A stretch of 39,358 nucleotides of DNA from a virus, in the IMG/VR virus record IMGVR_UViG_3300017788_000003, positions 1 through 39,358 of that record. The stretch is one strand, 5' to 3'. The translations under genes and the position numbers were made by a program. This document shows positions 7,701 through 38,792 of the stretch, one piece after another. The notes below the pieces were generated by a model. That model had not been told where the DNA came from. It saw only the letters and a list, made by a program, of their open reading frames with translations, and made no database searches. Numbering within the stretch: position 1 is the first letter of the stretch; each line of letters begins with the position of its first letter.

Positions 7701-8792
7701 ATGACGAAACAAGGCATTAGGCAAAGAGGCAGCTCCTTCCTGGTCGACATCACCGTGAACGGCATGCGTCGCACCAGAACCTGCACCACCTACGACGAGG
7801 CAGTGGTCGAGCGGCTGAAGATGGAGGCCGAGCTACGGGAAGGTGTTGCAGCACAGCAAGCTGCAACCAGCTGGACCATGAGCAAGGCGCTGTCCGTCAC
7901 CACGGAGGTGCGGTGGTCTGATACCCGCAACGGGACCAAGGCCATTGCCTGTGCCACTGAGGCAGCCAAGTTCTTTGGGGCGGACACACCGCTCGAGAGC
8001 ATCACCGTCGAACGGATCGACGACTACGTGCGTCACCTGCGCACACGGGAGCGCAACGCACCGGCCACCATCAACCGCAAGCTGGCTGCACTGTCGGCCC
8101 TGCTGACTGATGCAATGGAGCGGGACGGCCTGGCCAAGAAGCCACGCATCATCCGCCAGCCGGAGCCCAACCACCGCATCCGTTACATCTCCGCCGAGGA
8201 GGAGATGATGCTGCTCTCCTTGTTCCAGCAATGGCAGCAGCCAGCTGTGCGCGAAGCGGTGATCACCCTGCTGGACAGCGGCATGCGGGTGGGGGAACTG
8301 CTTTCTGCGCAGACCCGTGACGTCGACGTGAAGGCCAACATCATCAGCATCTGGCAGAACAAGGGCGACCTGCCCCGCTCTGTTCCGATGACAGACCGTG
8401 TGCGGCAGATCGTTACGACACGGTGCGAACGCAGCCGCGGCCTGGTGTTCTTTGACCTGAGCCGTGAAACCCTGCGGTACTACTGGGACCGTGCCCGCTC
8501 AGCCATGGGGCTGGATGAGGACGACCAGTTTGTGCCGCACTGCTTGCGCCACACCTGTGCCACACGCCTGGTGCAGAACGGTGTGTCGATCTTTGTGGTG
8601 CAGAAGATCCTGGGACACCGGTCGATCACGGTGACCGAGCGTTACTCACACCTGTCGGACAACGAGCTGCGCAACGCCATCAACACCCTGCAGGGGACTG
8701 TCGTCCCCGGTGCGCAACCTGTTGCCGATGTTGCAGGGCTTGTTGCAGACACTGCATCAAGCAAGACGCAGGCCAGCCCTGCAACCCACTGA
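7701..8792 (+). CDS. int: Tyrosine recombinase (phage integrase)
   Basis: A 363-residue tyrosine recombinase. An N-terminal arm-binding-like region is followed by a core-binding SAM-like domain (about 60-150) and a catalytic domain with Arg196 (DSGMRVGEL), Lys221, His280 and Arg283 (HCLRHT), His306 (LGHRS) and the nucleophile Tyr315 (TERYSHL). All catalytic residues are present, so the enzyme should be active. A tail after about residue 330 is low-complexity and contains the TGTTGCAG repeats at DNA level. It precedes the attP core in tRNA-Leu-like sequence, as in P-SSP7. Confidence 0.96.
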   Translation: MTKQGIRQRGSSFLVDITVNGMRRTRTCTTYDEAVVERLKMEAELREGVAAQQAATSWTMSKALSVTTEVRWSDTRNGTKAIACATEAAKFFGADTPLESITVERIDDYVRHLRTRERNAPATINRKLAALSALLTDAMERDGLAKKPRIIRQPEPNHRIRYISAEEEMMLLSLFQQWQQPAVREAVITLLDSGMRVGELLSAQTRDVDVKANIISIWQNKGDLPRSVPMTDRVRQIVTTRCERSRGLVFFDLSRETLRYYWDRARSAMGLDEDDQFVPHCLRHTCATRLVQNGVSIFVVQKILGHRSITVTERYSHLSDNELRNAINTLQGTVVPGAQPVADVAGLVADTASSKTQASPATH

Positions 8793-8959
8793 TTTGCCTG
8801 GTGCCCGGAGCGGGAGTCGAACCCGCACGTCCTACGACGAAGGATTTTAAGTCGCCCTCCCGTCCCTCCCTGGCGCCCAGCCGTATCTCCATGAATCCAC
8901 AGACCAATGGATGCACTTAGTTCTCCTGTACTTCAGTCCCCACCTGCGTTGTGTTGCAG
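8729..8959. promoter_or_regulatory. TGTTGCAG repeats flanking attP (possible integrase arm sites)
   Basis: TGTTGCAG occurs at 8729-8736 and 8741-8748 on the left of the attP core and at 8952-8959 on the right. Repeats on both sides of a core are what arm-type integrase sites look like, but an 8-base repeat inside coding sequence is weak evidence. Confidence 0.3.
8799..8853 (-). other. attP: attP core: 3' half of a tRNA-Leu(UAA) gene
   Basis: Read on the minus strand, this stretch has the anticodon loop CTTAAAA with TAA anticodon, a variable arm, a complete T-arm (CGGG-TTCGACT-CCCG), the 3' acceptor strand TCCGGGC, a discriminator A and CCA. Upstream of it the 5' half of the tRNA is missing, so this is not a working tRNA gene but the identity block that restores the host tRNA after integration. 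P-SSP7 carries a comparable tRNA-Leu match next to int. Confidence 0.88.
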
Positions 8960-11336
8960 GACAGAGGCCGACGAATGGCTACTGGAACGAGAAATGTTTC
9001 AGCTTGGTAGTGATCGGGTCGAGCTGCTGACCAACCGCAGCCGGGCCTGTCGGATGGAGTCCCTGTCCAAGTACGGCACGATCCTGACCGTGCATGGTGT
9101 CGACGCCCTGGTGGGTGAGATCCGTCGCCACCGCAAAGCCATGAAGGAAGGCAAGGCAGGGATGAGCTACGCCCTGCTGGGCCCCATCGCTCAGCTGGCA
9201 CCGCAGAAGGTGGCAGCCACGGCCATGCGTGTGGTGCTGGATCAGATCACACATACCAACAAGCTGCACGCCCTTGGGATTGAGCTGGCCGAGAAGCTGT
9301 GGATGGAGACCATGCTGGCCCGGGCCAGTAACTGGGAGCTGAAGCTGCACAAACGGGTGCGGCCCCGTAACCACGGCAAGCGCAAGGACGTGTTGCGCAT
9401 GAGGAACACCCAGGTCTGGGAGCCCAAGGAACGGCTGGCTACGGGCGTCTTCCTGGTCACCCTGGTCGCCCAATGCACCGGGATGATCGAGGTGTACATG
9501 GAACGGGAGGGCATCCGCACCGTCCGCAAGGTCCGTGCCACCCAGGCCTGCCTGGACTGGATCAGCCAGGTGACTGCTGAGCAGCGGCTGATGTCACCGC
9601 TCAGCCTGCCGATGATCATCCAACCCAGGGCCTGGTCGTCGGTGATGGACGGCGGCTACTACCTGCCGGAGATGCCCAACAACACCCTGGTCAAGGAAGA
9701 CCCGGAGGCAGTGGCTGAACACACCACCGGCAATGAGGCGTTTGTCCTGGCTGCCAACCTGCAGCAGACGGTGGGCTGGACAATCAACGACTGGCTGCTG
9801 CAACAGTTGCGGTATGCCTGGGATCAGAACCTTGAGGTCGGCAAACTGATCCCTCGAGAGGGGTGGGAGGTGCCGCCGTACCCCAAGCACCTGCCGTCGG
9901 ATCATGCCGACATAACCCAGTGGAAGTTCAACGCCCGCCTGATTCATGAGGCCAATGACCGGGCCAAGCACAAGAAGATCGCCACGGCCAAGCAGCTGTG
10001 GTTGGCAGAGCGGTTCGTCAATGAACCAGCCATCTACTACCCGATGCAGCTGGACTTCCGTGGGCGCTACTACTACAAGCCGCCGTTCCTCAACCCACAG
10101 GCCAATGACATAGGCCGCGGCCTGCTGTTGTTCGCCCAGGGCGTACCGATTACCGAGCCATCCCAGGCGGACTGGTTGAAGATCCACGGGGCCAACGTCT
10201 ACGGGCACAGCAAGCTCACCTGGCGAGCCCGTATCGACTGGGTGGATGGCAACACACAGGCCATCAGGCAGGCCAGCCAAGACCCGTGGTCGTGCTCTGC
10301 GTTCTGGACCAAGGCCTCTGATCCTTGGCAGTTCCTGGCCTTCTGCCGGGAGTACGACGGCTGGCTGCAGCACGGCGTCGGCTACGTCTGCCACCTGCCT
10401 GTCGTCCTGGACTGCACCTGCTCTGGCATCCAGCACTACGCCGCCCTGCTGCGTGACGAAAGCATGGCCAGCTTGGTGAACCTGATGCCCAGCGAGAAAC
10501 CGCAGGACATTTACACCGCTGTGATGGAACGGGTGTTGCACCGCCTGCGCACCGACACCAACGTGGCGGCTAAGCACTGGCTCGAGCTGCAGCCTGACCG
10601 GTCGCTGGCCAAGCCGGTGGTGATGACCCTGCCTTACTCAGCTAGTCGACGTGCGGTGTTCGGCTTCTGTCAGGAGTGGGCCTTGGATCGAGCCCTTGAG
10701 CTTTACGGCCAAGACAGCTGGCCGTTCAAGCGTGGGGCTATTGCCGACATGCACTACATGACGTCGATCCTGCACCAGGAAACCAGCCGGATGATCGCTC
10801 CTGCCAAGAAGGCAATGGAGTGGTTCAAGAAGGTGGGCCGCCTGGCTGGTGAGAACAACATCGTTCTGTCGTGGCGTTCACCGTCAGGCCTATGGGTCCG
10901 GCAGAAGTACCTGGACTACAGGGAAAGCCGGATCAAGTTGCACCACTTGAGCACAGTGCCCATGGACCTGCGGTCGTACCACATGCCCAAAGGGTTGAAC
11001 CCCAAACGCATGGGCAACGGCCTTAGTCCCAACGTCATCCATTCCATGGACGCCAGTCACATGGCGTTCGCCACCATCCGTGCCTTTGACGCCGGAGTTC
11101 AGAACCTTGGAGGTATCCATGATTGCTTTGCCACGACCCCCGCCGAGATGAGTCTTGTGCGGGATGCAGTCCGCATGTCCTTTGCTGACCTGTACAGCTA
11201 CAACTGGCTGGCCGACATAACGTCGCAGCTGCTGGCACAGATCCCTGCGCCACTGCATGTCTACCTCCCAGAGCCTCCTACCCATGGGGATCTGGACATT
11301 CAACAAGTCCTGTCCGCTGACTACTTCATCTGCTAA
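8907..11336 (+). CDS. rpo: Single-subunit DNA-dependent RNA polymerase (T7 gp1-like)
   Basis: An 809-residue T7-family RNA polymerase, shorter than T7 (883) mainly at the N terminus. Palm motif A is LDCTCSGIQH with catalytic Asp502 (T7 has DGSCSGIQH); motif B has Lys569 and Tyr577 (KPVVMTLPY); motif C is GIHDCF with Asp739. The C terminus ends YFIC where T7 ends FAFA. The specificity-loop region (about residues 670-700) is quite unlike T7, so its promoter must differ. The ATG at 8907 has no clear Shine-Dalgarno sequence; an internal Met at residue 30 is an alternative. It should transcribe the replication and virion genes. Confidence 0.97.
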   Translation: MDALSSPVLQSPPALCCRTEADEWLLEREMFQLGSDRVELLTNRSRACRMESLSKYGTILTVHGVDALVGEIRRHRKAMKEGKAGMSYALLGPIAQLAPQKVAATAMRVVLDQITHTNKLHALGIELAEKLWMETMLARASNWELKLHKRVRPRNHGKRKDVLRMRNTQVWEPKERLATGVFLVTLVAQCTGMIEVYMEREGIRTVRKVRATQACLDWISQVTAEQRLMSPLSLPMIIQPRAWSSVMDGGYYLPEMPNNTLVKEDPEAVAEHTTGNEAFVLAANLQQTVGWTINDWLLQQLRYAWDQNLEVGKLIPREGWEVPPYPKHLPSDHADITQWKFNARLIHEANDRAKHKKIATAKQLWLAERFVNEPAIYYPMQLDFRGRYYYKPPFLNPQANDIGRGLLLFAQGVPITEPSQADWLKIHGANVYGHSKLTWRARIDWVDGNTQAIRQASQDPWSCSAFWTKASDPWQFLAFCREYDGWLQHGVGYVCHLPVVLDCTCSGIQHYAALLRDESMASLVNLMPSEKPQDIYTAVMERVLHRLRTDTNVAAKHWLELQPDRSLAKPVVMTLPYSASRRAVFGFCQEWALDRALELYGQDSWPFKRGAIADMHYMTSILHQETSRMIAPAKKAMEWFKKVGRLAGENNIVLSWRSPSGLWVRQKYLDYRESRIKLHHLSTVPMDLRSYHMPKGLNPKRMGNGLSPNVIHSMDASHMAFATIRAFDAGVQNLGGIHDCFATTPAEMSLVRDAVRMSFADLYSYNWLADITSQLLAQIPAPLHVYLPEPPTHGDLDIQQVLSADYFIC

Positions 11337-11971
11337 TGGCTTCCACATTTCAACTGATCGACAAGATCCGATTCACCACCCCGCTCTGCAAGTTCCAGTA
11401 CCCCAAGCTGATCGAACCTGAAACCAAGTTCAATCCGCAGGGTGACTACAAACTGACCTGCCTGATCGACGCACGGGATGCTGATGCCCTGGCCACCCAG
11501 CTCGATGAGCTGCTGACTAAGCACAAGGCATCACTCAAAACCCAGGCACCCGATCAGAAGTTCAAGCTGGCTGACCTGCCCTGGTCCTTTGAGGAGATCG
11601 ACGGCACGCCCTACTTGGTAGTCAAAACCAAGATGAAGGCCAGTGGTGTCGACCGTGATGGCCGCCGCTGGACGGCAGTGCCTGCACTGTTTGATGCCAA
11701 GGGTTTGCCGGTCAAAGACCGCGAGTCTCTGCGCAGTATGTGGTCCGGCACCGTCGGCAAGGCCTCTGTTGAAGCCTGCCCCTTCTACCAGCCCGCTATT
11801 GGCGCAGGCGTCACACTGCGTCTGCGTGCAGTCCAGGTGATCAGCCTGGTTCAGAGTGGTGGCAGTGCGGAGAGCTTCGGCTTCGAGGAATCGGACGGCT
11901 GGAGCGCAGACAACAAGGAGATCCCGTTCGACTCGACCGGCGTCGGTCCCGTCGACGATGGGGACTTCTAG
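11336..11971 (+). CDS. Single-stranded DNA-binding protein (T7 gp2.5-like)
   Basis: A 211-residue protein beginning one base inside the RNA polymerase stop (TAATG). The body has the OB-fold-like pattern of gp2.5 proteins (GDYKLTCLIDARDADAL, then a beta-rich half), and it ends in an acidic tail with a terminal aromatic residue (VDDGDF), the hallmark of gp2.5 used to contact polymerase and helicase. In T7 that tail contacts the phage DNA polymerase, which is absent here, so its partner may be a host protein. Confidence 0.88.
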   Translation: MASTFQLIDKIRFTTPLCKFQYPKLIEPETKFNPQGDYKLTCLIDARDADALATQLDELLTKHKASLKTQAPDQKFKLADLPWSFEEIDGTPYLVVKTKMKASGVDRDGRRWTAVPALFDAKGLPVKDRESLRSMWSGTVGKASVEACPFYQPAIGAGVTLRLRAVQVISLVQSGGSAESFGFEESDGWSADNKEIPFDSTGVGPVDDGDF

Positions 11972-12356
11972 GTTCCGCTCCAAGTTCGAGGCCCGTGTTG
12001 CAGCGGGCCTCCGCAACCAGGGGGTCAGCTTTGAGTACGAGGCACTGACCCTCCCCTACCAGCTTGAGCTTGAGTACAGGCCCGACTTCATCCTGCCCAA
12101 CGGGGTGATTGTTGAAACCAAGGGTGCGTTCCCGACTGAGGACCGTCGCAAGATGCTGGCCGTCAAACGCCAACACCCTGAGCTGGACATCCGCATCTGT
12201 TTCATGAAGGCCGACGTGAAGCTGTCCCGCGCTCCACGTTCCATCACCTACTGGCAGTGGGCGGAGAAGGCAGGGTTCCTCTGGTGCGAAGGAGCAATTC
12301 CCCATAGCTGGCTCACCGATGCCGTCCAAGTTTCTGAAGCACGAGCCCTGTCCTGA
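11958..12356 (+). CDS. Endonuclease I, Holliday-junction resolvase (T7 gp3-like)
   Basis: A 132-residue protein read from the ATG at 11958 (14 bases before the SSB stop); longer readings start inside the SSB gene. It aligns well by eye with T7 gp3: Glu11 in FEARV, FEYE at 25-28, PDFILPNG with Asp43, VETKG with Glu53 and Lys55, then HPELDIRI. These match the metal-binding and catalytic residues of the T7 enzyme. It resolves branched DNA before packaging and helps degrade host DNA. Confidence 0.95.
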   Translation: MGTSRFRSKFEARVAAGLRNQGVSFEYEALTLPYQLELEYRPDFILPNGVIVETKGAFPTEDRRKMLAVKRQHPELDIRICFMKADVKLSRAPRSITYWQWAEKAGFLWCEGAIPHSWLTDAVQVSEARALS

Positions 12357-13935
12357 GTGCGGGTCGAAGGACAACTTCGCCCGCTACGACGACGGCCACG
12401 GTCATTGCTTCGGCTGCAATTACCAAGATCAGCCCGTCAAGACCGAACGCGATCACCCACCACGCATGGCGCCCAAGCCACCACCCACCACAAAGCTGCT
12501 TGAGTTCATCAACGTCAAAGCCCTGGGCAAACGGGGCATTGCCGAGGACACCTGCAAGCTGTACCAGTACGGGGTCACCACGTACCAAGGACAGCCAGTC
12601 CAGGTCTCGAGCTATCGCAACCAGACCGGACAGGTCGTCGCCCAACACATCCGCTTCCCGGACAAGAAGTTCAAGTGGATTGGTGACACCAGCAACCTGC
12701 AGCTCTGGGGCCAGCACCTCTGGCGCCAGGGTATGGGAGGTGGCGGCGGCCTGTTTGTTGTGGTGACAGAAGGCGAGATCGACGCACTGTCGGTCAGTCA
12801 GGTCCAAGGCAACAAGTTCCCGGTCGTCTCCCTTCCTAATGGCGCCCAGTCAGCCAAGAAGTATTTGGCCGCAAATGCTGCATGGCTGGGGCAGTTCAAC
12901 CGCATCGTGCTGTGCTTCGACAGCGACGAGCCTGGGCGTCGTGCGGCTGAGGAGGCGCTGACTGTCCTGCCCCTCGGCAAGGCAGCCATCTGCAACCTGC
13001 CCCGCAAGGACGCCAATGAGATGCTGCAGGCCGGGGAAGGCGACCTGCTGCGTGACCTGTTGTGGAAGGCAACGCCCTCAAGGCCCGATGGCATCGTCAA
13101 TGCCAGCGAGCTATGGGATGAACTGATCAAGCCAGGGGCTACGGCGGTCTGCCGTTACCCCTGGCCCAACCTGGACCGGGTCACCCGTGGTTTCCGCAAG
13201 GGGGAGATGATCACCCTTGCCGCCGGCAGTGGCATCGGCAAGTCATCCATCTGCAGGGAATGGGCCCACCACTTCCTGCGTCAAGGCTTGCGCGTTGGCT
13301 ACATCGCCCTTGAGGAGTCCACCAAGCGGACCATGCAGGGCATCGTCGGCATTGAGCTGAACAAGCCGATCCACCTGGACCCTGCCCTGGCCACAGAGCA
13401 GGAGGTCCGCAGCGGATTCGACCGGGTGTTTGGCACTGGCCGCTGCTTTCTCTATGACCACTTCGGATCCATGGACCCGGAGCGGTTGATTGAGCAGATC
13501 CGATACTTGGCTGACGGGGAAGGCGCCGACGTGGTGGTGCTGGATCACCTGACCATCGTGATCAGCGGCCTATCGGATCTGGATGAACGCCGTGCCATCG
13601 ACGTCACCTGTACCAAGTTGCGGCAGGTGGTGGAGCAGACCGGCGTCGGCCTGGTCCTGGTGTCTCACCTCAAGCGGCCAGAAGGCCGCGGTCATGAGGA
13701 GGGGGCGCAGACGTCGCTTTCCCAGCTCAGAGGTAGCCATGCCATTGCCCAGCTGTCGGACATGGTGATTGGCGCTGAGCGCAACCAGCAGGGTGACAAC
13801 TGCGAACGCAACGAGCTGCAGATACGGGTGCTAAAAAACCGCTTTAGCGGTGAGACCGGCATCGTTGACAAGCTGGTGTACGACACACAGACCGGACGCC
13901 TGGTCGTCCCCCTATCCCATTACTTCGGAACCTGA
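12319..13935 (+). CDS. Primase-helicase (T7 gp4-like)
   Basis: A 538-residue bifunctional protein. The N-terminal zinc-binding primase domain has Cys11, Cys14, Cys30 and Cys33 (CPEC and CFGC). The TOPRIM catalytic centre has Glu151 (TEGEID) and Asp201/Asp203 (CFDSDEPG). The RecA-like helicase has Walker A GSGIGKS with Lys308 and a later LDHLTI motif. It overlaps endonuclease I by 38 bases. The C terminus ends SHYFGT, lacking the strongly acidic tail with which T7 gp4 contacts DNA polymerase. An internal ATG (Met50) is preceded by CACCCACCAC, see next entry. Confidence 0.97.
   Translation: MPSKFLKHEPCPECGSKDNFARYDDGHGHCFGCNYQDQPVKTERDHPPRMAPKPPPTTKLLEFINVKALGKRGIAEDTCKLYQYGVTTYQGQPVQVSSYRNQTGQVVAQHIRFPDKKFKWIGDTSNLQLWGQHLWRQGMGGGGGLFVVVTEGEIDALSVSQVQGNKFPVVSLPNGAQSAKKYLAANAAWLGQFNRIVLCFDSDEPGRRAAEEALTVLPLGKAAICNLPRKDANEMLQAGEGDLLRDLLWKATPSRPDGIVNASELWDELIKPGATAVCRYPWPNLDRVTRGFRKGEMITLAAGSGIGKSSICREWAHHFLRQGLRVGYIALEESTKRTMQGIVGIELNKPIHLDPALATEQEVRSGFDRVFGTGRCFLYDHFGSMDPERLIEQIRYLADGEGADVVVLDHLTIVISGLSDLDERRAIDVTCTKLRQVVEQTGVGLVLVSHLKRPEGRGHEEGAQTSLSQLRGSHAIAQLSDMVIGAERNQQGDNCERNELQIRVLKNRFSGETGIVDKLVYDTQTGRLVVPLSHYFGT
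12454..12468 (+). promoter_or_regulatory. Probable internal start for a helicase-only form (gp4B-like)
   Basis: CACCCACCAC (12454-12463) lies two bases before the in-frame ATG at 12466 (Met50), just after the zinc domain. T7 makes a short gp4B form that lacks the zinc domain from an internal start at a similar place. A second CACCCACCAC follows at 12482-12491, within a Pro/Thr-rich linker, so codon bias of the linker could also explain the match. Confidence 0.45.
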
Positions 13936-14156
13936 TGATCTGCCCTGAGTGCAACTCACCACTGCACCGCACCGTTTTCACGCGACAGACGGACAATGAC
14001 AAGGCCATGCGTCGCAAGAAGTGCAAGCTCTGCGGCCATGGCTGGTACACCGTGGAGGTGATCCTGCCGACTAATGCCGTCGTTCATCTCCGTGATGCAA
14101 GCGGCACCACCGGCATTGCCCTGGCCAAGTCACACCGCAACATCCTGTTCCAATGA
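13935..14156 (+). CDS. Small zinc-ribbon protein
   Basis: A 73-residue protein with CPEC at residues 3-6 and CKLC at about 30-33, basic residues between (AMRRKK) and a following beta stretch. The spacing resembles an NrdR-type zinc ribbon, without the rest of NrdR. Its ATG overlaps the primase-helicase stop (TGATG). It occupies, with the next gene, the slot where T7-like phages keep DNA polymerase. A role in nucleic-acid binding is likely from the fold; a replication role is inferred only from position. Confidence 0.75.
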   Translation: MICPECNSPLHRTVFTRQTDNDKAMRRKKCKLCGHGWYTVEVILPTNAVVHLRDASGTTGIALAKSHRNILFQ

Positions 14157-14509
14157 AACGCGACACCTTCACCGCTCCCGGCCTGCGCGTCGAGCGACAG
14201 TGGGACCGATGGAACGGAACCCTCTACCTGGCTTGGAGGCCCAACGTGTCCATGTGCTTCAGGGATCGCAAGTCCATGCTGAAGTTTGTGGCCTGGCCGG
14301 CCAAGACGCCGACGGGTGACCGCTTCCGCGAATGGCTTGATTCCTTTGAGCAGCAGGGCCACCCAAACGAAACGCAGCCTTTAACAAGCTCGCCCCTTGT
14401 TCAACGTAGTGAAGCCAGCCTTTCACAAGAGCTACTGGCCACTGGCTTTGGGCCTGAGTGCCACCTGGATGAATCGGACCCCAACCACCAAACCCGCACC
14501 GTTATCTGA
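14153..14509 (+). CDS. Unknown protein in the replication block, 118 residues
   Basis: Starts at 14153, overlapping the previous stop (ATGA). The first 70 residues are tryptophan- and arginine-rich (RVERQWDRWNGTLYLAW) and could form a small folded domain; the rest is polar and probably disordered, ending HQTRTVI. No polymerase motif is visible, so it is not a remnant of a DNA polymerase that I can recognise. It overlaps the exonuclease start by one base. Confidence 0.7.
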   Translation: MKRDTFTAPGLRVERQWDRWNGTLYLAWRPNVSMCFRDRKSMLKFVAWPAKTPTGDRFREWLDSFEQQGHPNETQPLTSSPLVQRSEASLSQELLATGFGPECHLDESDPNHQTRTVI

Positions 14510-15267
14510 TGACTCTCCTGATTGACGCTGACTGGCTGATCCATTCAGCCTGCGCTGCCTGCGAAACCGACGTGCAGTGGGACGAATGGATCCACACCCT
14601 GCACCTCGAGGAGGGGGATGCCAAAGAGTTCATCACCATGCGCGTGGACTACTGGCGTGATCTCACTGGTGACGACCAGCTGGTGATGTGCTTCTCTGAC
14701 TACCCCACCTTCCGGCATGAGATCCACCAGAACTACAAGGCCAACCGGGTGGGCAAGCGCAAGCCCCTTGGGCTGAAGTCCATCCGCCAATGGGTGTCGA
14801 ACAACTACGAGACCAGGACCCACCTGGGCCTTGAGGCGGACGACACCATGGGCCTGCTGTCAACCAGTGGGCTGTATCGCAACCCGGTGATTGTCTCCAT
14901 CGACAAGGACATGCGCACAGTCCCTGGTTCACTGCTGGCTACCGACACCGTAGAGACTGTGTCGCTGACTGACGCCAACCGGAACTGGATGAAGCAGGCG
15001 CTGACTGGCGACACGTCGGACAACTACCCAGGCCTCAAGGGTGTGGGTCCGGTCAAAGCTGAACAAATCCTTGGGGCAGCTATCTCATTGCCTGAGATGT
15101 GGGACAAGGTAGTGGCGGCCTATCAGAAGGCAGGCTTCACTTTGTCGGACGCACTGTTCAATGCCCGCATGTCCCGCATCTTGCGTGTGGGTGACTACGA
15201 CTTTGCAGCTGGTCGCGTCCAGCTGTGGGATCCAGATGCTGACGTCGCTATGACCGCCCATGTCTGA
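14509..15267 (+). CDS. 5'-3' exonuclease (T7 gp6-like, FEN family)
   Basis: A 252-residue protein of the flap/5'-3' exonuclease family. Metal-binding acidic residues are visible at Asp6 and Asp8 (LIDADW), Glu109/Asp111/Asp112 (LEADD), Asp132/Asp134 (SIDKDM) and Asp168/Asp171 (GDTSDN), followed by a helix-3-turn-helix segment PGLKGVGPVKAEQIL. It removes RNA primers and degrades host DNA in T7. The start TGATG overlaps the previous gene. Confidence 0.94.
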   Translation: MTLLIDADWLIHSACAACETDVQWDEWIHTLHLEEGDAKEFITMRVDYWRDLTGDDQLVMCFSDYPTFRHEIHQNYKANRVGKRKPLGLKSIRQWVSNNYETRTHLGLEADDTMGLLSTSGLYRNPVIVSIDKDMRTVPGSLLATDTVETVSLTDANRNWMKQALTGDTSDNYPGLKGVGPVKAEQILGAAISLPEMWDKVVAAYQKAGFTLSDALFNARMSRILRVGDYDFAAGRVQLWDPDADVAMTAHV

Positions 15268-17906: not shown

Positions 17907-18743
17907 ATGCCTGAAGCCATCACCATCGTCGAAGAACAGACACCAGCGCTGTCACCCGAAAACCAGGAAATGCTCCAAGCCCTGGAGTCAGACGGCTCCG
18001 GGGACGACCAGCTGCTGGCTGGCAAGTACAAGTCAGTCGAGGAGCTTGAGAAGGCCTACAAAGAGCTGCAGTCCAAGCTGGGCCAAGGGGCCAAGCCAAC
18101 GCCTGCCGCAACAGAAGCTGATCCAGATGATCAGCAAGAGACAGAAGAATCCGACGACGAGGCGGAACCCCCTGCGGGCAATGCCAAGGAGATTTACGGG
18201 GACTTCATTGGCTCCCGCCTTGAGGAAGCCGACATTGACTTCTCCTCGATGTCTGACCGGTGGACTCAAACCGGGAAGCTCGATGATGGGGACTATAGCC
18301 AGCTTGAAGAAGCTGGATTCACCCGTGACATGGTCGACGCCTACCTGGCTGGCCTGAACTACAAGGCCAACCAGGACAGCCAGCTGACGGTCAAGGAGAT
18401 CACGGCGATCAAGGCTGAGTACGGGGGTGAGGCCCAGTACAGCGCCATGATCCAATGGGCTGCTGGCAACCTGCCCAAGGATGAGGTGGACGCTTTCAAC
18501 CAGGTGGTGAACACCCAGCCGTTGAATGTGGCCAAGCTCGCCATTGCTGGCCTCTATGCCAAGTTCACCGCAGCCGAGGGTCGTGAACCCCGGCTGATTG
18601 GCGGCAAGGCATCCAAGCAAACCAGTGAGCGGTTTGAGTCCACAGCTCAACTGGTGGCTGCCATGTCGGATCCCAAGTACAACGCTGACCCCGCTTACCG
18701 CCGCAAGGTGGAGGAGAAGCTACGCAATTCATCCATCATGTGA
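17907..18743 (+). CDS. Capsid assembly/scaffolding protein (T7 gp9-like)
   Basis: A 278-residue, strongly acidic protein between portal and capsid genes. It contains a charged coiled-coil-like segment (VEELEKAYKELQSKLG at about 45-60), a disordered acidic region, and a C-terminal helical part (about 225-278) with RRKVEEKLRNSSIM at the end, the part that usually binds capsid protein. CCACCCACC directly precedes the ATG, related to the early leader motif. Gene order and composition match T7 gp9. Confidence 0.92.
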   Translation: MPEAITIVEEQTPALSPENQEMLQALESDGSGDDQLLAGKYKSVEELEKAYKELQSKLGQGAKPTPAATEADPDDQQETEESDDEAEPPAGNAKEIYGDFIGSRLEEADIDFSSMSDRWTQTGKLDDGDYSQLEEAGFTRDMVDAYLAGLNYKANQDSQLTVKEITAIKAEYGGEAQYSAMIQWAAGNLPKDEVDAFNQVVNTQPLNVAKLAIAGLYAKFTAAEGREPRLIGGKASKQTSERFESTAQLVAAMSDPKYNADPAYRRKVEEKLRNSSIM

Positions 18744-18767
18744 TCACCCTGGTCGCCATGCTGGTTT

Positions 18768-18797
18768 GCCCCGGTCCCTTGGTCCGGGGCTTTTTTC
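18768..18797 (+). terminator. Intrinsic terminator after the scaffold gene
   Basis: Stem GCCCCGG...CCGGGGC (18768-18790) with an interrupted inner stem, followed by TTTTTT. It would reduce read-through from portal/scaffold and leave the capsid gene to its own promoter in the 130-base gap downstream. Confidence 0.85.
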
Positions 18798-18800
18798 TTT

Positions 18801-24557: not shown

Positions 24558-27470
24558 ATGGCACAACCCTTTCTTGGCAAAAACTACGGCGACACCAGCC
24601 GCACCACGCCGGCTCGCTTGCTGGGTGGAACACCGGAATCCAGCAGCCAGGCTCCTATCGGCACGTCATCGCTGGCTCAACCCGCCCTGCAGGTCGTCCA
24701 GCAAATTGCCGACACCTTCTCCAGGCCAGGCCAAGGGCCCACCGTGGGTGGCCCTGCAGTCCTGCCGACACCGCCTCAGGTCTTCCGGGGTCAGGCGCCA
24801 ATTCCAGCATCGTTGCCGCGGCCTGTGGAGGCCCCCTTCAGCCGCACACAGATGTCTGTGGTGGGCGAGCAGCGGGTCCTGCCGACCGTCGTCAACGAGC
24901 CCAAGTACGCGCCCTATGTCAACAACATGGCCGCCCTGGCCGGTGCCTTGTCGACCTTCAGCCCGTTCTTTGAGGCCCTGCAGCTAACGACCAACAACCG
25001 AGAGCGGGTCGTCAATGAGCGGGCCAAGATTGCCGGCGATGCCCTGGCTCAACAAGCCAGCCAGGTTGGCATGTTCTCAAGCCTGCAGGAGCTGCAGAAA
25101 GCCCTTGAGAAAGGCGCAGGCCAGGGCCTTGCGGGTTATGACCAACTGTTGCAGCGATTCCAAGCTGCTGACCCCAGGGCTCTGCGTTATGCCTCCATCG
25201 GCCTGCAGGACTCCTACATCAAGAGCAATGCAGCCACGCTGAAGGAACGGGTCAGCCAGACCAAGACATTGCTGGACGGTCGTCCACTTGAGTCGGTGCC
25301 GGCCAATGACCCTGAGTTTCAGCGGCTGACGACAGCCCTGATGTTCCCCAACGGGACCATGGGGATCATGCCAGAGGTGTTTGAGGCCAACCGGCAACAG
25401 CTGACTGCTATCTACGGCTCAGCGTCGTCCGACCAGGAGAAGCGGTACGCCGGCTACAAGACCCAGAAAGCAAAGCAAGGCCTGGCAGCTGTCCAGGACG
25501 GCAATGCCATGGCCCTGGTGAATGGTAGCCTGCCCCTTGAGCAGATTGCCGCCAACCTCACCAACGGCCTGCACGGCTTTTACAACGAAAGCGGCCAGAC
25601 CAGTGACGAATACCAAAAGGAGAAGGAAGGTTTCGCCAAGGGCTTTGTGAAGTCAGTCCTGGCTGCATCAGCTGGCGACTGGGGCAAGGCGAAGCTGGCC
25701 CTGGCTCGAGTCCCGGAAGTAATAGCTCAAGTGCAGGCCGGGCCGATGGATGCCAATGGCAAGGCCCCCCTGCTGCTTGACCAGATCGGCGGTATGGCCG
25801 GCCTGTACGAGATCACTAAGGAACTGCAGGAGCAGGTGATCAGCCAGCAGAACCTGAACGACAACCTGGATGGTCGTCAGGCCAAGGAGCAGGTCGAGGT
25901 CGACATCAAGAACGCCTTTACCCCAGAGGTGCTGGCGGACCCTGCAAAGATCGACATGGTTGAAAGGACCGTGCTGGCTCGCGGTCGGCAGCTGTACGGC
26001 AACAATCCAGAGATGGCGCTGGCCTACGAGGAGGCCGTCAAGAAGCACACCTCCGGGATCCGCACTGGTTACGTGCAGCCGGTGCAAGAGCAGAACGAAG
26101 TGAACCTATGGGCCCAGATGGCTCAGAACCCGTCGGTTGACTTCACCGGTCGCATCATGCAGCTGCAGCGGTCGCAACAGATCAGCTACAGCGCGGCCAA
26201 GAGCTTCCTGTCGACTCAGGCCAGCCGCAATCGTGAGGACAACAAGGCCAACTACCAGGTGCTGCGTGGCCTGCAGGATGACTTTAAGAAGCGCCTTGAG
26301 ACCCAGTACGCCCGGGGCGGTTCAAAAGGCGGTGCCAACCTGACACCCAACGAAGCCCGCCAGCTGTGGCAAACGCTGGGCGAGTTGTACAAGTCCGGCG
26401 ATGACCTGATCCGCAAGGCTCCTGGCCAGGACGTCACCAAGCAACTGGGCGACCTGTACGGCAATGCACTGAGCAAGTCGATGCCCCAGCAAACACAGCA
26501 GGCCCCAGCTGGTGCGACGCCAGAGGGAATTGCTAAGGGCCTGGCTCCTGGTGCTCGCGGCAACCCGTCACAGAACAACCAGCTGCGTCGTCAGATTGAA
26601 ACCCAGCCGCTTTACGCCAAGGAGCGGATGGGGCAACAGCTAGACGGGATCCTGCAGGGCAGGCCGCTGGATAACGCCACCCGGCAGATCATCCGTCGTA
26701 GCGGCCTGAAGCCCAGCGAGTTCTTCTCCCGGCAAATGCAGCTTCATGGCGTCCCCCTGGACAGTGATACCCAGAAGCGTCTGCAGGAGCTGGATGGCGG
26801 CGACCTGGTGTCGCAGGTTCCCGCTGCCCCCAACCCCTATGCCACGGTGGCTTCTCGGATGGGGATGCAGTTTGCCAATTCCATCCTCAATGCCATTGCG
26901 CCACCTGCTGCTGCAGCAGAGAGGGGTGTCGCCCCTTTTACGGCTAACCCCGTAGCGGTCACAGGTGGCTTTGGCGGCTTGCTGGGCGTGCTCCGCAGTG
27001 GGGAAGGCGGGTGGAACTCGGTCAACCGTGGCCGCACTGGCGACAGCTCCCCAATGCAAAACCTGACGTCTACAGCCATCGGCGTAATTGAAGACATGCA
27101 GCGCCGTGGCCGAGTGTTTGCTGTGGGCGCTTATCAGTTCACGCCAGGTGTGCTGGCCAGGGCACGCCGAGAGGCCGGGTTGTCACCCAACGCGCTAATG
27201 ACACCGACAAACCAAAACGCAATGGCAACGGCATTGATTCTTGGCAGCAAGCGACCGGCACTGGCTGATTACATTCGCGGCAAGAGCAATGACTTGAACG
27301 CTGCGCATCTGGACATTGCCAGTGAGTGGGCGTCGTTGCAGGCGCCAAACGGTCGTGGGGTGTACGACGGAGACAGCGCAGGCAACATGGCCAGTGTCTC
27401 TGCCGCCACCGTGCGTGCAGCCTTGAAAGAGGCAAGACGCGCCTATCTATTACGTCAACGCCGGAGCTGA
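24558..27470 (+). CDS. Internal core protein (gp15-like) with C-terminal lysozyme-like domain
   Basis: A 970-residue ejection-apparatus protein in the T7 gp15 position. The first 700 residues are mainly helical. The C terminus (about 805-965) has a lysozyme/transglycosylase-like pattern: LRSGEGGWNSVNRG with a likely catalytic Glu816, then VFAVGAYQFTPGVLARARREAG and TPTNQNAMATALIL. In T7 the murein-cutting transglycosylase lies in the N terminus of gp16, so the activity appears to have moved to the neighbouring protein here. It should open the cell wall for genome entry. Confidence 0.88.
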   Translation: MAQPFLGKNYGDTSRTTPARLLGGTPESSSQAPIGTSSLAQPALQVVQQIADTFSRPGQGPTVGGPAVLPTPPQVFRGQAPIPASLPRPVEAPFSRTQMSVVGEQRVLPTVVNEPKYAPYVNNMAALAGALSTFSPFFEALQLTTNNRERVVNERAKIAGDALAQQASQVGMFSSLQELQKALEKGAGQGLAGYDQLLQRFQAADPRALRYASIGLQDSYIKSNAATLKERVSQTKTLLDGRPLESVPANDPEFQRLTTALMFPNGTMGIMPEVFEANRQQLTAIYGSASSDQEKRYAGYKTQKAKQGLAAVQDGNAMALVNGSLPLEQIAANLTNGLHGFYNESGQTSDEYQKEKEGFAKGFVKSVLAASAGDWGKAKLALARVPEVIAQVQAGPMDANGKAPLLLDQIGGMAGLYEITKELQEQVISQQNLNDNLDGRQAKEQVEVDIKNAFTPEVLADPAKIDMVERTVLARGRQLYGNNPEMALAYEEAVKKHTSGIRTGYVQPVQEQNEVNLWAQMAQNPSVDFTGRIMQLQRSQQISYSAAKSFLSTQASRNREDNKANYQVLRGLQDDFKKRLETQYARGGSKGGANLTPNEARQLWQTLGELYKSGDDLIRKAPGQDVTKQLGDLYGNALSKSMPQQTQQAPAGATPEGIAKGLAPGARGNPSQNNQLRRQIETQPLYAKERMGQQLDGILQGRPLDNATRQIIRRSGLKPSEFFSRQMQLHGVPLDSDTQKRLQELDGGDLVSQVPAAPNPYATVASRMGMQFANSILNAIAPPAAAAERGVAPFTANPVAVTGGFGGLLGVLRSGEGGWNSVNRGRTGDSSPMQNLTSTAIGVIEDMQRRGRVFAVGAYQFTPGVLARARREAGLSPNALMTPTNQNAMATALILGSKRPALADYIRGKSNDLNAAHLDIASEWASLQAPNGRGVYDGDSAGNMASVSAATVRAALKEARRAYLLRQRRS

Positions 27471-33400: not shown

Positions 33401-33701
33401 CCCTGATCAATTTGGCCGCACCCTTCTGCAAGCCCTCGAGGAGGAGATCAACAGCGATCTGTACCAGCAGAACCCGCAGGAGCAACCCAGCGAGCAGGTC
33501 GTCAGCCTGCGAGCTGCAGCGTTGAACCAGGTGATTGTCAAGTACTTGCAGCTGGGTCGTGAAACCTTCCTGGCCAGCCCGTCTGGCAAGCGCCTGACAG
33601 ACAACAAGGACTGGGCCGAGGGTGCTAACCGTGACGTGCAGTTCCGGCTTAAATACGGCCAGGCGATTGATCCCAAGGCCTTCATTGAGAGCTTGCGCTG
33701 A
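27474..33701 (+). CDS. Giant internal core protein (gp16-like) with ParB-like and ADP-ribosyltransferase-like domains
   Basis: A 2,075-residue protein in the gp16 position (T7: 1,318), 3 bases after gp15. Residues 407 to about 610 look like a ParB/sulfiredoxin-type domain (YVVNGHNRLRLAK at about 469-481, then ENTPEEA-like and helical regions). After an Ala/Pro linker, residues 838-985 resemble an ADP-ribosyltransferase-like domain of polyvalent proteins: SHGTS (His845), GEGVYMTP (Tyr877) and TEIVIYN (Glu971), i.e. an H-Y-E-type triad, with GYDGIQY before the Glu. Another Ala/Pro linker follows, then a long helical C terminus (about 1,020-2,075). Such proteins enter the cell with the DNA, so the domains may act on host proteins at the onset of infection. 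Domain names are by eye. Confidence 0.85.
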   Translation: MPFQTIKDPQTGEQRQVYVAPQGMGNQSSPAPKRAAQPAGDSGNSNPLAAIVNAVPGLQQALGNAVMTSPLGLAFSGMQSGAQAIGAGAQEYVRTGDLGKAGAKVQQTVTKSLKAPTPGATIARIGYNAGRNALQELSDVATADVPAALGFKVKPTSAAMPDAPFLGIAPALPKLKSTGPAEDLATGIAQTALEWIPAARAVGLVGKGLSMVPGAARVAQAAVGATGAYKTAKAAQIAKLAPSLQKPAAIATRAAEAVAGNVLGKNAATGMTVDLVGFDQHGGRLYDLVDNLTEQVTGTPLEVPVLNYLKSNPGDVGMQGRLKNAVEGLFVGSTVDFLMRAFRAGKYVSRLRTATPEEVPAAAAAAKSATEDLQREVVKQANTVPERPVTAPAAAPAQPIPDMQAPAYREVAEVDPKTIIADPQRFQFKEAGRLTKTGASGSLAESSGYNPELAGIISVWRDPANGVSYVVNGHNRLRLAKNDGTSKVLVRYLQANTPEEARAIGALQNIAEGQGTPVDAAKFMRDTGKNAEDMAAQGINMSGPVIAKAVPLTNLPQNLFDRATTGQLELSKAVALGSEKLDPQIINDVAAEAGKRKWSADKITQAMQEAKFAQTESKGDDLLSLLGAEWASKTSNFNQLLDVRTEAFRALREEMVALTSAAREGRKGILEAAGNQIDVAASQAARNQAAQGVEVFNRVTGYKGPVRDLLNELASQVGGKQTAKTLVAENLDRLRAAIDAEINGPALPLEQAPVAQAAPAPTTAAAAPVPATAVDNGVDNAAPVAGPSAAEIADLDRTLAQARADLTPEQRVVLRDQVLADRYGAPAAAATPERPLVKAGVELSHGTSEAGRKGILTEGFRTSEYEKSGTVAGEGVYMTPSGRYAKEYGQKTVSGSLPEDARVLDWTGGNQTLADLADEIGIPGPRKLNKPAGEIELDRAEQQALKQWALDNGYDGIQYRTNFTPGGKATEIVIYNADLANRIVGSKAAPAPAPAAVAAEPAPVPAPAAVAAQVEIPVDVQTPVPDQAWAEQFANQIAVNRAQLASGDLTMDDLLVNNVQKLESPSGRQYQPIQPQAMVEAYRAHSDLVSRPDATGIPVMSDEQITADTAEWLGKNNYSSQAVLENLKRLSGPLSAYRENLVALRSAALYLDHTNLQAGVAANRWLNGQMDEVADMGKLTAELVTAAAQQDRANRAFESVTRPLGQLLRSTQVPRPEPGSIPFDDAAPVKNIASDFEKELVKDQDALVAETIGERISPDAKEAIVTGNYNNPKVIEEFNALALNMAQSAVTPGFSQGFWRKFNESINLGTQGLMMYRSSQLLSSGITFWGNVINSALRTVEMPFTQAMGALVTGNPARASRSLMIYGQYVSNLANAFRMGVESFKVGRGLFDLDRSQVDFLDRLAAQDAQGELLATAQKGEWSMNTVPWLAVQDKSNWAMAQKRLWQGLNLSSRLQVSADSAFKTLVGQSFEYVRNLQPGLDNAVRLGMDGNSKEAWKFATDYAQAAVDRRLKDVVIDGKNILDAVMDSPYALTATRWATFTDDLWASMETRTMQRGMEMAEAKGLKGDEAKTFAQDYVDKGTNVMGMRMDDIPFFARTFSLMPRIWQMGLDSPLGPLFALVQPFNRTPGDIVKSVARKTPLAPLVDTWWRDVFSEDAMTRDRAFGDIATGAAAISLASIAMTHGNIEFTGGGPQNPDARRKWVDQEGKQPYSMRFKVGTDENGNPVYTDWISMRALDPYASLFGGLADYHELANKVSVEARERLGSALVLDLVTAVATGQLQKSYYQGFTELYDMAMGLGETDIGPNRRHPTARYIERLVASFLPYSSALRAGRRIDDRTAREVPASNNPNLAMRLFEETAGEIKNMIPGWSTSLPPKRNWITGDPVTLSGVWGDQFLPPESPWLSTLMQFNPAAPFQLKGEPGEMVLREMGQLTGRGAGFVGPRATDFTDGGKIKDNRLSAYEYEQYVLAISRTPDQFGRTLLQALEEEINSDLYQQNPQEQPSEQVVSLRAAALNQVIVKYLQLGRETFLASPSGKRLTDNKDWAEGANRDVQFRLKYGQAIDPKAFIESLR

Positions 33702-35833
33702 TGGCTTACTCCTTTGTCACTTACACCGGTAACGGCGCCACGACGCAGTTCGCGGTGCCGTTCGGGTACATCCGAAGGGAGCACATCCAGGTCTCTTTGA
33801 ACGGGACGGTCACCACGGCCTTCACCTGGGTCAACGACGGCACCATCCAGATGAACACCGCCCCCGCCAATGCGGTGGTGGTAAAAGTTCTGCGGATCAC
33901 TCCGGTCAGTGCGTCGCTGGTTGATTTCACCGATGGCAGCACACCGGTTGCCAAGGATTTCGATACGGCCAACACGCAGAACCTGTACACCAACCAGGAA
34001 CTGCGGGACATCTCGGACAGCACTGACGCCCTGTCGACTCAGGCGCTGACGACCGCCAACACTGCGCTCAGCAACTCAAGCACAGCCATCAGTACCGCCA
34101 ATGGCGCGGTGACCACGGCAAACGCGGCCTCCACTGCGGCCAGCAACGCCGTCAGCACGGCCAATACGGCCAATGCCAACGCATCAGCTGCAGTCAGTAC
34201 GGCCAATGCTGCATCGACAGCAGCTGGCAATGCGGTGACAACAGCCAACACTGCATCTGCCGCGGCAATCAATGCCGTCAACGCATCCAGCGCGGCCACG
34301 ACTACAGCCAACGCTGCAGCCAGTGATGCAGCAACTGCAATCAGCACCGCCAATACGGCGCTGACAACGGCCAATAGCGCCACCGCCACGGCAAACTCGG
34401 CTTCCACTGCCGCCAGCAATGCCGTCAGCACGGCCAACACTGCTGCCTCAAACGCTTCCGCTGCAGTTACAACTGCAAATACGGCGGCAACCAACGCTTC
34501 CGCTGCTGTCAGTACTGCAAATACAGCAAGCACCAACGCATCGGCTGCTGTTACCACGGCCAACGCCGCACAGGCTGATGCCACCAATGCAGTCAACACA
34601 GCTAACACCGCGGCCAGTAACGCCTCTACGGCCCTCAGTACTGCCAATGCGGCCACGGCTACAGCCAATACCGCCGCTAGCAACGCATCGACAGCACTGA
34701 GCACGGCCAATACGGCAGCCACTAACGCATCAGCCGCGGTCACGACGGCCAACACCGCAAACACCAAGGCGGACCAGGCGATTGCAGCGGTTGGCAGCTC
34801 CGTGCTGTATGAGCTGGTGGCCAATGTGGCTGCTATCCCGGGCTCGCCAGCCAACAACAAGGCGATTGAGGTCTACGACTCCACCGGGATTGAGGGCTTC
34901 ACCCCCCTAGCGGGACTGCCGGTCGGTTTTACCGGCAGCTCGGGCCTGTCAGCACGGATCATCTACAGCAGTGCTGGCAGCACCTGGAACTGGGTGCAGT
35001 ACTTCCCCAATGATCCAGAGACCCGCTACCTGAAGATCGCGGCAGCATCGAGCACTTACCTAACGACTGCCAATGCCAGCAGCACGTATGCACCGCTTGT
35101 TCACGGACATCCCTATGCCCCGCTCGCTAGCCCCACCTTTACGGGGACGCCTGCTGTGCCGACAGCAGCTGTTGACACCGACACCACTCAGGCCGCCAGC
35201 ACGGCCTATGTGATTGGGCAGGGCTATCTCAAGTCGGCGTCAGCGGCTTCGACCTATCAAACCATTGCTGGCATGTCGTCGTATTTGACGACGGCCAACG
35301 CTGCATCGACCTACGCGCCCATCAACAACCCGACATTCACCGGCGCCGCCACCACCCCTTCCGTCGTCTTGGATGCAGGCAGTGGCGTTTTGGGCCGCAT
35401 CGCCAGTGCCGGCCTGGTTGATTCGGTCACCAACGACGGCGTCGGCATCCGTGCGCAAGCCGACAGCGCACCGGTTCTGATTGGAACCATGGTCAGCAGT
35501 GCGGCCCATCCAATCGCAGGGTTCTTTACCACTGGCCTGATTCTGCGGAACTCAAAAGAGATCCGCTTCCTGGACGCCGATGCAAGCCACTACGTCGGAT
35601 TCAAGCCGCCTGCAGTGGTTACCACCAGCCAGGTGTGGCAGCTGCCTGCTGCGGACGGCACGAACGGCCAGGCGCTGACCACCGACGGCAGTGGGGTCCT
35701 TTCCTGGACAACCACGACCCCGGCAGATGGTTCCATCACCACAAGCAAGTTGGCAAATGGCGCTGTTACACCTGCCAAGCTAGACAGGGCCTACGCATCC
35801 GAAGCGTTCGCTTTCTTCTGCAGTGCCTTCTAA
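33701..35833 (+). CDS. Tail fibre protein (T7 gp17-like N terminus)
   Basis: A 710-residue protein. Residues 1-105 match the T7 gp17 N-terminal attachment domain (TGNGATTQFAVPFGYI, LYTNQELRDISD). Residues about 115-365 are a coiled coil of 14-residue repeats of the type AVSTANTAASNASA, almost only Ala, Thr, Ser, Asn and Val. After that come collar-like repeats (SPTFTGTP, NPTFTGAA, ANASSTYAP) and a beta-rich receptor-binding end. The start overlaps the gp16 stop by one base. Receptor specificity cannot be read from the sequence. Confidence 0.93.
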   Translation: MAYSFVTYTGNGATTQFAVPFGYIRREHIQVSLNGTVTTAFTWVNDGTIQMNTAPANAVVVKVLRITPVSASLVDFTDGSTPVAKDFDTANTQNLYTNQELRDISDSTDALSTQALTTANTALSNSSTAISTANGAVTTANAASTAASNAVSTANTANANASAAVSTANAASTAAGNAVTTANTASAAAINAVNASSAATTTANAAASDAATAISTANTALTTANSATATANSASTAASNAVSTANTAASNASAAVTTANTAATNASAAVSTANTASTNASAAVTTANAAQADATNAVNTANTAASNASTALSTANAATATANTAASNASTALSTANTAATNASAAVTTANTANTKADQAIAAVGSSVLYELVANVAAIPGSPANNKAIEVYDSTGIEGFTPLAGLPVGFTGSSGLSARIIYSSAGSTWNWVQYFPNDPETRYLKIAAASSTYLTTANASSTYAPLVHGHPYAPLASPTFTGTPAVPTAAVDTDTTQAASTAYVIGQGYLKSASAASTYQTIAGMSSYLTTANAASTYAPINNPTFTGAATTPSVVLDAGSGVLGRIASAGLVDSVTNDGVGIRAQADSAPVLIGTMVSSAAHPIAGFFTTGLILRNSKEIRFLDADASHYVGFKPPAVVTTSQVWQLPAADGTNGQALTTDGSGVLSWTTTTPADGSITTSKLANGAVTPAKLDRAYASEAFAFFCSAF
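34045..34790 (+). repeat. 42-bp imperfect tandem repeats in the tail-fibre gene
   Basis: Variants of the 14-codon unit AVSTANTAASNASA are repeated through this stretch, with single units degenerate or missing. Repeat-number change by recombination could lengthen or shorten the fibre shaft. The antisense strand is open over the whole stretch, an artefact of the repeat's codon bias. Confidence 0.9.
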
Positions 35834-37617: not shown

Positions 37618-37644
37618 AGTCTGCGTGATGCCACCACGCAGACT
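37618..37644 (+). promoter_or_regulatory. Strong hairpin at the start of the metallophosphoesterase gene
   Basis: AGTCTGCGTG (37618-37627) pairs perfectly with CACGCAGACT (37635-37644) around a 7-base loop. The stem ends on the T of the TTG start codon chosen for the next gene. No T-run follows, so it is not a terminator; it could be an RNase processing site, as in T7 late mRNAs, or restrain translation. Confidence 0.55.
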
Positions 37645-38792
37645 TGGACTCACCCGAGCGGCTATTTACCTGCCGGCGGTTGCGGAACTGCAGGGCCAAG
37701 CTGTCGCTGCTGGATTTGGAGCGCGACAAAGACAGCGGGAGCCTGGTGTGCAAACCAGGCCGTTGCCCTAGCGCCAGGAACCACGACAGCGCCAGCCTGA
37801 TCAACTTGCAGGTCGAGCTGCGCAAGACACGGCAGGAAGTACGTGACCTGCAGTTGGAGAAGGAGCGGCTGCTGGGTCATGTCACCGGCCTGCAAGAACA
37901 GCTGACAACGGCGCTTGAGATCCGGGACATTGAGCCACGGGCCGAGATTGCCCACACAACAGCAGGGGGCCGCAGTGAAGCGGTGCCGATCTTGCTATGT
38001 ACGGACTGGCATTGCGGCGCTGTGGTGAAGCCAGAGACCGTTAACCACCTGAACGAATACAACGTCGACATCTTCCACGAACGGGCCGAAGCATTGTTCC
38101 GCAATGCCCTACGGGTGGTGAACATGCTCCGGTCTACCTGTGACGTGCGGCAAATGGTGGTGTTTCTTGGCGGTGATCTGATTGATAACTGGCTTCATCC
38201 TGAACAGATACAACTGCAGGAATTGAGCCCGACACAGCAGCTGATCGAATGTGAAAAGGCCGTAGTACAGGGCCTTGACTACCTGGTGCGCCATGGCGAC
38301 CTGGAGCGGATTGTTGTGCCGTGCTGCTATGGCAACCATGGCCGCACAACACTAAAGATGCAGGCCGATAACGCCCATGCAACCAGCTACGAATGGTTGA
38401 TGTACCAGAGCCTGCGTCGCCATTTCAGGCATCAGGACTCCATTGAATGGAGCATCAGCGACGGGAACGTGCTGTACCTGGACGTGTTGGGGCGGAAGCT
38501 GCGGTTCACTCATGGCGATGCCATCCGCTATGGCGGCGGCGTGGGGGGCATCTCAGTGCCGCTGCAGAAGTGGTTGTACCGCCAGGACGTAGGTATTCGT
38601 GCTGATCACACCTTCATGGGGCACTTCCACGCCTTGACTCACGGCCCAAATTGGACGGTCAACGGCTCCTTGATTGGCCCAACGGCCTATGGGTTAAAGC
38701 TGGGCTTTGCGCCGGAGAGGCCACAGCAGGGCATGCGGGTGATCGACAGCGAGCGTGGGTTCACCATCAACGCCCCGATACTGACGGATTGA
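37644..38792 (+). CDS. Calcineurin-like metallophosphoesterase with N-terminal coiled coil
   Basis: A 382-residue protein. The start is a TTG at 37644 (no ATG in the frame; an in-frame stop lies at 37626). Residues 1-50 contain a Cys-rich stretch (CRRLRNC, CKPGRC), and about 50-95 form a coiled coil. The phosphoesterase core is complete: DWH (Asp121, His123), GGDLID (Asp178, Asp181), GNHG (Asn241, His242), THGD (His300) and GHFH (His337, His339). It could be a nuclease or phosphatase acting on DNA or RNA. It lies in the late region where such genes occur in other cyanophages. Substrate unknown. Confidence 0.88.
   Translation: MDSPERLFTCRRLRNCRAKLSLLDLERDKDSGSLVCKPGRCPSARNHDSASLINLQVELRKTRQEVRDLQLEKERLLGHVTGLQEQLTTALEIRDIEPRAEIAHTTAGGRSEAVPILLCTDWHCGAVVKPETVNHLNEYNVDIFHERAEALFRNALRVVNMLRSTCDVRQMVVFLGGDLIDNWLHPEQIQLQELSPTQQLIECEKAVVQGLDYLVRHGDLERIVVPCCYGNHGRTTLKMQADNAHATSYEWLMYQSLRRHFRHQDSIEWSISDGNVLYLDVLGRKLRFTHGDAIRYGGGVGGISVPLQKWLYRQDVGIRADHTFMGHFHALTHGPNWTVNGSLIGPTAYGLKLGFAPERPQQGMRVIDSERGFTINAPILTD

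Follow-up and report, generated by a model that had tools for sequence, protein, structure and literature searches.

The window analyzed in this study, the whole 39,358-nt stretch of DNA from a metagenome assembly, is a complete T7-like cyanopodovirus genome of the polymerase-less MPP-C type and belongs to a GC-rich branch of that type. We found that the entire clade lacks gene 5, which encodes the T7-type DNA polymerase, and that the primase-helicase gp4 has lost its docking tail throughout the clade, as a natural equivalent of the T7 truncation gp4-ΔC17. This loss is the new point here. We consider it likely that gene 5 and the gp4 docking tail were lost in the ancestor of the clade and that replication was handed to a host polymerase.

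The replication genes of the window lie on the + strand. A T7-type single-subunit RNA polymerase (gp1, 8907-11336; PF00940, E 1e-82; nearest P-SCSP1, 49%) is followed by a gp2.5-type ssDNA-binding protein (11336-11971; phrog_112, E 5e-25) with the acidic tail PVDDGDF and a terminal Phe, and by a gp3-type endonuclease I whose start codon is uncertain (11856-12356; phrog_945, E 4e-39). The gp4-type primase-helicase (12319-13935; phrog_239, E 1e-182) has a complete core in which the zinc Cys residues, TOPRIM, and Walker A and B are all present. Its naturally truncated C terminus, TGRLVVPLSHYFGT, ends at about T7 position 552. Between gp4 and the gp6-type 5'-3' exonuclease (14509-15267; PF02739/PF01367, phrog_107) are two optional cargo genes, a 73-aa NrdR-like zinc ribbon (13935-14156; PF22811, E 8e-8) and a 118-aa protein that matches no Pfam family (14153-14509; phrog_37139, annotated as function unknown). 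These four genes are packed with overlaps of 1-4 nt (TGATG, ATGA, and TGATG). A preliminary description of this DNA gave the coordinates and contents of the slot correctly, and its statement that the gp2.5-, gp3-, gp4-, and gp6-like proteins are intact is right; these proteins and the RNA polymerase all have their motifs.

The same description reported that a DNA polymerase is missing from the T7-like genome, and this was confirmed by profile searches. PF00476 (pol A), PF00136 (pol B), and PF07733 (pol III alpha) found nothing in the record but did match in the control genomes. A profile built from 96 distinct phage gene-5 proteins (related loci and T7) was then run with all filters off, and nothing was found at E <= 10 when every ORF of 20 aa or longer in the six frames of the window was searched. 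With this profile, the 133/133 polymerase-bearing control loci scored 68-938 bits, and polymerase-less loci reached 7.8 bits at best. The family A gene-5 polymerase of a T7-type replisome is thus absent from the window. The preliminary description knew of no described autographivirus without this gene, and on this point it was wrong. A clade of such podoviruses, MPP-C, with 18 isolates from Prochlorococcus, was reported by Cai et al. (2022); these phages plaque on Prochlorococcus MED4 and have a latent period of 12-15 h compared to 6-8 h in polymerase-bearing phages on the same host (PMC9860041). Polymerase-less T7-like phages made up nearly half of the cyanopodovirus reads in surface oceans, and host Pol I, host Pol III, or an unrecognised polymerase were proposed as the replicase (PMC9860041). 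The window is therefore a GC-rich addition to a polymerase-less clade of a kind already described in 2022.

The placement of the window was examined using gene content and a gp4 tree. As in Autographiviridae, the window has a single-subunit RNA polymerase and a T7-like virion gene order, with a T7-type terminase, gp13, and gp14. As in MPP-C, its genes follow the T7-like class II order and include none for a DNA polymerase. The nearest sequenced phages by tblastn were P-SCSP1 (TerL 76%, MCP 72%, gp4 58%, RNA polymerase 49%). In the gp4 tree of 84 representatives, the window grouped with P-SCSP1 and P-SCSP2 to the exclusion of polymerase-bearing cyanopodoviruses (support 100), and its GC-rich branch is sister to the MPP-C isolates. 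The GC content of the window is 60.6%, and that of its branch is 56-63% in the relatives checked, compared to 34-39% in the isolates. The window ends share a real 123-bp overlap, so that the genome closes on itself as noted before. The unique length of 39.2 kb is slightly larger than the 37.3-37.9 kb of MPP-C, a range that describes the 18 isolates and does not define the clade.

P-SCSP1a-u (OM416763-79; PMC9860041) share with the window the order RNAP-gp2.5-gp3-gp4-gp6 without gene 5, a terminase on the opposite strand, a truncated gp4 tail, and a retained gp2.5 tail. MPP-C phages are described as having no auxiliary metabolic genes (psbA, hli, mazG, rnr, talC, and thyX); the window was searched with psbA, hli, mazG, rnr, and thyX of relatives, which gave no tblastn match at E 0.1. 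P-SCSP1a-u differ from the window in having 39% GC, gp4 abutting gp6 with no cargo, Prochlorococcus MED4 as the host, and no annotated integrase. P-SCSP2 (OM416780, MPP-C) also lacks gene 5 and, like the window, has an integrase before the RNA polymerase and a truncated gp4 tail (YENVFGD in P-SCSP2). However, it is more distant (TerL 52%, MCP 51%, gp4 53%), has 34% GC and a terminase on the same strand, and no endonuclease was reported for it (PMC9860041). Compared to the T7 replisome (gp2.5, gp4, gp5, and host thioredoxin), the window has homologues of gp1, gp2.5, gp3, gp4, and gp6 in the same order but no gp5, and its gp4 ends about where gp4-ΔC17 ends. MPP-A and MPP-B phages (S-CBP2, P-SSP7) have the same genome plan, and the 118-aa protein has a homologue in S-CBP2, but they carry their own gene 5, a Phe-ending gp4 tail, and nrd, psbA, hli, or mazG. 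Two members of Autographiviridae, Roseobacter phage CRP-125 and Pelagibacter phage HTVC041P, have an integrase, the same operon order, and a gp4 48-50% identical to that of the window, but with gene 5 between gp4 and gp6.

The host of the window phage is probably a picocyanobacterium. The GC content of 60.6% and the presence of a homologue of the 118-aa protein (67%) in Synechococcus phage S-CBS3 make Synechococcus/Cyanobium the probable host. A search for the host through prophage relatives gave no cyanobacterial match in GTDB contigs. Directly after the integrase (7701-8792), a tRNA-Leu(UAA)-like 3' half ending in CCA was observed at 8799-8853 on the - strand, matching tRNA-Leu genes at about 80-85%. 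This partial tRNA-Leu is likely an attachment site, and the phage may therefore be temperate or integrate transiently. Several other features were observed elsewhere. A calcineurin-type metallophosphoesterase (37644-38792, +; phrog_284, annotated as exonuclease) lies near the end of the late genes. A tail-fibre-like ORF (33701-35833) contains an Ala-Asn-Thr-rich repeat array at 34049-34759 with units in multiples of 21 nt. A terminator-like GC hairpin followed by a T run is found 3' of the scaffold gene (18732-18798, +). Near this hairpin lay the single match of an Rfam scan of the window, which was below threshold (anti-hemB) and probably due to chance.

We then surveyed the gp4-gp6 slot in relatives. 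Presence of gp4, gp6, and gene 5 was scored in 355 sequences, comprising the loci and the window. Gene 5 was absent in all 176 scorable loci related to the window (73), P-SCSP1 (24), or P-SCSP2 (79), with 14 further loci of these types ending too early for scoring. It was present in 133/133 scorable CRP-125- and S-CBP2-like loci, with 31 others ending too early. A whole-length PF00476 search found no match in 18 near-complete polymerase-less contigs and both isolates, and a match in 4 polymerase-bearing controls. In the gp4 tree, calculated with the tail removed, the 32 polymerase-less representatives were on one side of one branch with a support of 100. A scan that used a diverse gp4 alignment as the query and added about 77 further loci, of which a few end before any polymerase would be visible, revealed no polymerase-less locus outside the clade; the two that it contained, L405 (same contig as L007) and L429, belong to the clade. 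Since the polymerase-less loci form a single clade and none was found elsewhere, one ancestral loss of gene 5 explains the whole clade. One polymerase-less locus (L011) lies on a contig of 60,395 bases (G003), compared to 35-43 kb in other relatives; this contig may be a concatemer, a chimera, or a larger genome.

The slot left by the polymerase varies in size and content. In the window branch, it ranged from -3 to 1342 nt and differed between close relatives (e.g. L014, L012, and L044). It was 64 nt or shorter in 13/73 loci and often held the zinc ribbon, sometimes the 118-aa protein, and sometimes nothing. In P-SCSP-type loci, the slot had at most a few nt except in one locus near a contig end; gp4 overlaps the exonuclease start in P-SCSP1a, and only a few nt separate the two genes in P-SCSP2. 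The zinc ribbon was present in 70 polymerase-less loci and in 0 polymerase-bearing loci. Replacement of the polymerase by the zinc ribbon and the 118-aa protein was considered and rejected, because the slot is empty or differently filled in close relatives. The vacated slot acts as a gene-cargo site, and the two proteins are dispensable cargo and no substitute. The predicted structure of the 118-aa protein consists of a small b4-a2 domain and a disordered conserved tail. The best match of the predicted fold in the PDB, a Pur-alpha repeat, was not significant (E 0.066). Its end (TGFGPECH..TRTVI), which is probably disordered, is near-invariant among the window (14153-14509), L083 (5944-6264), and L084 (6001-6327). 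Homologues are found in siphovirus S-CBS3 (67%) and MPP-A podovirus S-CBP2 (37%), and the gene thus appears to be a mobile cyanophage gene.

Basic patches on gp5 are what the gp4 tail binds in T7 (PMC12593628), and with the 17 C-terminal residues removed (gp4-ΔC17), processivity falls to about 5 kb, compared to 17 kb with the full-length protein (PMC12593628; PMC5997990). T7 gp4 has 566 residues, which places the end of gp4-ΔC17 at 549. When 86 gp4s were aligned, only approximately for the short tails, 32/32 polymerase-less gp4s ended at T7 positions 549-556 and 54/54 polymerase-bearing gp4s at 566. Among 154 non-redundant gp4s, a terminal Phe was found in 0/32 polymerase-less and 100/122 polymerase-bearing proteins; in a first, smaller polymerase-bearing set the trait had been near-absolute (49/52). 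Polymerase-bearing and polymerase-less gp4s of this set differed in the mean net negative charge after the conserved TGR motif (4.1 vs 0.7), the median tail length (17 vs 11), and the median number of acidic residues (5 vs 0). The exceptions were 22/122 polymerase-bearing gp4s without a terminal Phe, among the polymerase-bearing loci one (L411) with an equally short, weakly acidic tail, and the P-SCSP2-like polymerase-less tails, which retain two acidic residues. The observation that the window gp4 ends in LSHYFGT without an acidic tail was therefore right, and it applies to all 32 polymerase-less representatives. In contrast to gp4, gp2.5 retained its acidic Phe-ending tail in the window and in 77/77 distinct polymerase-less tails, compared to 30/33 polymerase-bearing ones, so that of the two proteins only gp4 has lost its tail. 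The counts are of sequences that share the pattern by descent within one clade; as no independent gene-5 loss was found, the link between tail and polymerase comes from a single evolutionary event. The searched text of PMC9860041 has no mention of the gp4 C terminus.

The lost tail has been replaced by another. In the window branch this tail reads VVPMSxYFGT, and the isolates carry other aromatic tails ending near FG. Its pN/pS was 0.19, compared to 0.17 in the preceding 50 codons, and P, Y, F, and G were invariant in 56 distinct sequences despite synonymous changes. The substitute tail is thus under purifying selection. Being as conserved as the rest of the protein, it would have some role, perhaps in packing only.

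The following replication scheme can be proposed. Gene 5 was lost once in the clade ancestor, as the single clade on the gp4 tree shows, and gp4, as its sequence pattern shows, lost the acidic Phe-ending tail that docks the polymerase in T7. Judging from the protein families, primers would be made by the phage RNA polymerase and the intact primase domain, DNA would be unwound by gp4, single strands would be coated by gp2.5, which keeps its tail, and primers would be removed by gp6. DNA synthesis itself would be carried out by a host DNA polymerase, and the loss of the gp4 tail together with the absence of gene 5 fits copying by a host enzyme. The main enzyme may be Pol III with its clamp, which we somewhat favour because of its processivity, with Pol I possibly initiating or filling in. 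The replication proteins were searched for clamp-binding motifs, and neither a convincing motif nor any other direct contact was found. The new gp4 tail (PMSxYFGT in the window) and the retained gp2.5 tail might even bring a T7-type helicase into physical contact with the cyanobacterial replicase and recruit it, a rewiring that we put forward only tentatively. A helicase-primase of the phage working with a polymerase of the host might, with the same reserve, be a hybrid not described before.

Because the window is a metagenome assembly, a polymerase segment could have been missed or collapsed. However, the same gap was found in 176 loci of separate assemblies (73 relatives of the window and 103 P-SCSP1/P-SCSP2-like loci) and in sequenced isolates, the genes abut with overlaps of 1-4 nt, and the slots vary in length from -3 to 1342 nt. 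A collapsed deletion is thereby refuted in practice, and an assembly gap is hardly credible. A phage-encoded polymerase too diverged for recognition, the third hypothesis of PMC9860041, could be missed by profiles, and several window ORFs have no assigned function (e.g. 24558-27470). We regard it as very improbable, since the unfiltered profile of relatives gave no match even at E 10, the large ORFs occupy T7 structural positions, and a diverged gene 5 would be expected to preserve the gp4 docking tail, which is gone in 32/32 representatives.

Host Pol I alone, used by gp4 in place of gene 5, would also account for the absence of gene 5. It belongs to the same polymerase family (family A), and an enzyme of low processivity would fit the slow infection. 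One of the two gp4-binding patches, however, lies in the thioredoxin-binding insertion, which is missing from Pol I. With the gp4 tail also gone and with its low processivity for a 39-kb genome, Pol I as the only replicase is rather unlikely, even though it is among the three hypotheses of PMC9860041. The preliminary description read the missing tail as consistent with adaptation to a host polymerase. This fits the tail loss and is plausible, but relaxation after loss of the partner is equally possible. The tail loss could be a by-product, the tail having been cut off with the 3' end of gp4 when gene 5 was deleted or having decayed, and would then be uninformative on host coupling. The tail and gene 5 adjoin, gp4 runs directly into gp6 in P-SCSP1 and P-SCSP2, and a contact of the gp4 tail with the host would be hypothetical. 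Against this, conservation of the new tail matches that of the remainder of gp4 (pN/pS and invariant residues as given above), and we place the by-product explanation at somewhat less than an even chance.

Since 2022, it has been asked by what enzyme T7-like phages without a polymerase replicate their DNA. The loss of exactly the gp5-docking segment of gp4, while gp2.5 keeps its tail, speaks against a hidden polymerase of the T7 type and is consistent with the handover of replication to a host enzyme. Short peptides and a helicase are now available as candidates for binding to host Pol I or Pol III. These results also indicate that the polymerase-less state reaches a diverse GC-rich branch, so that surveys using DNA polymerase as a marker miss these phages too.
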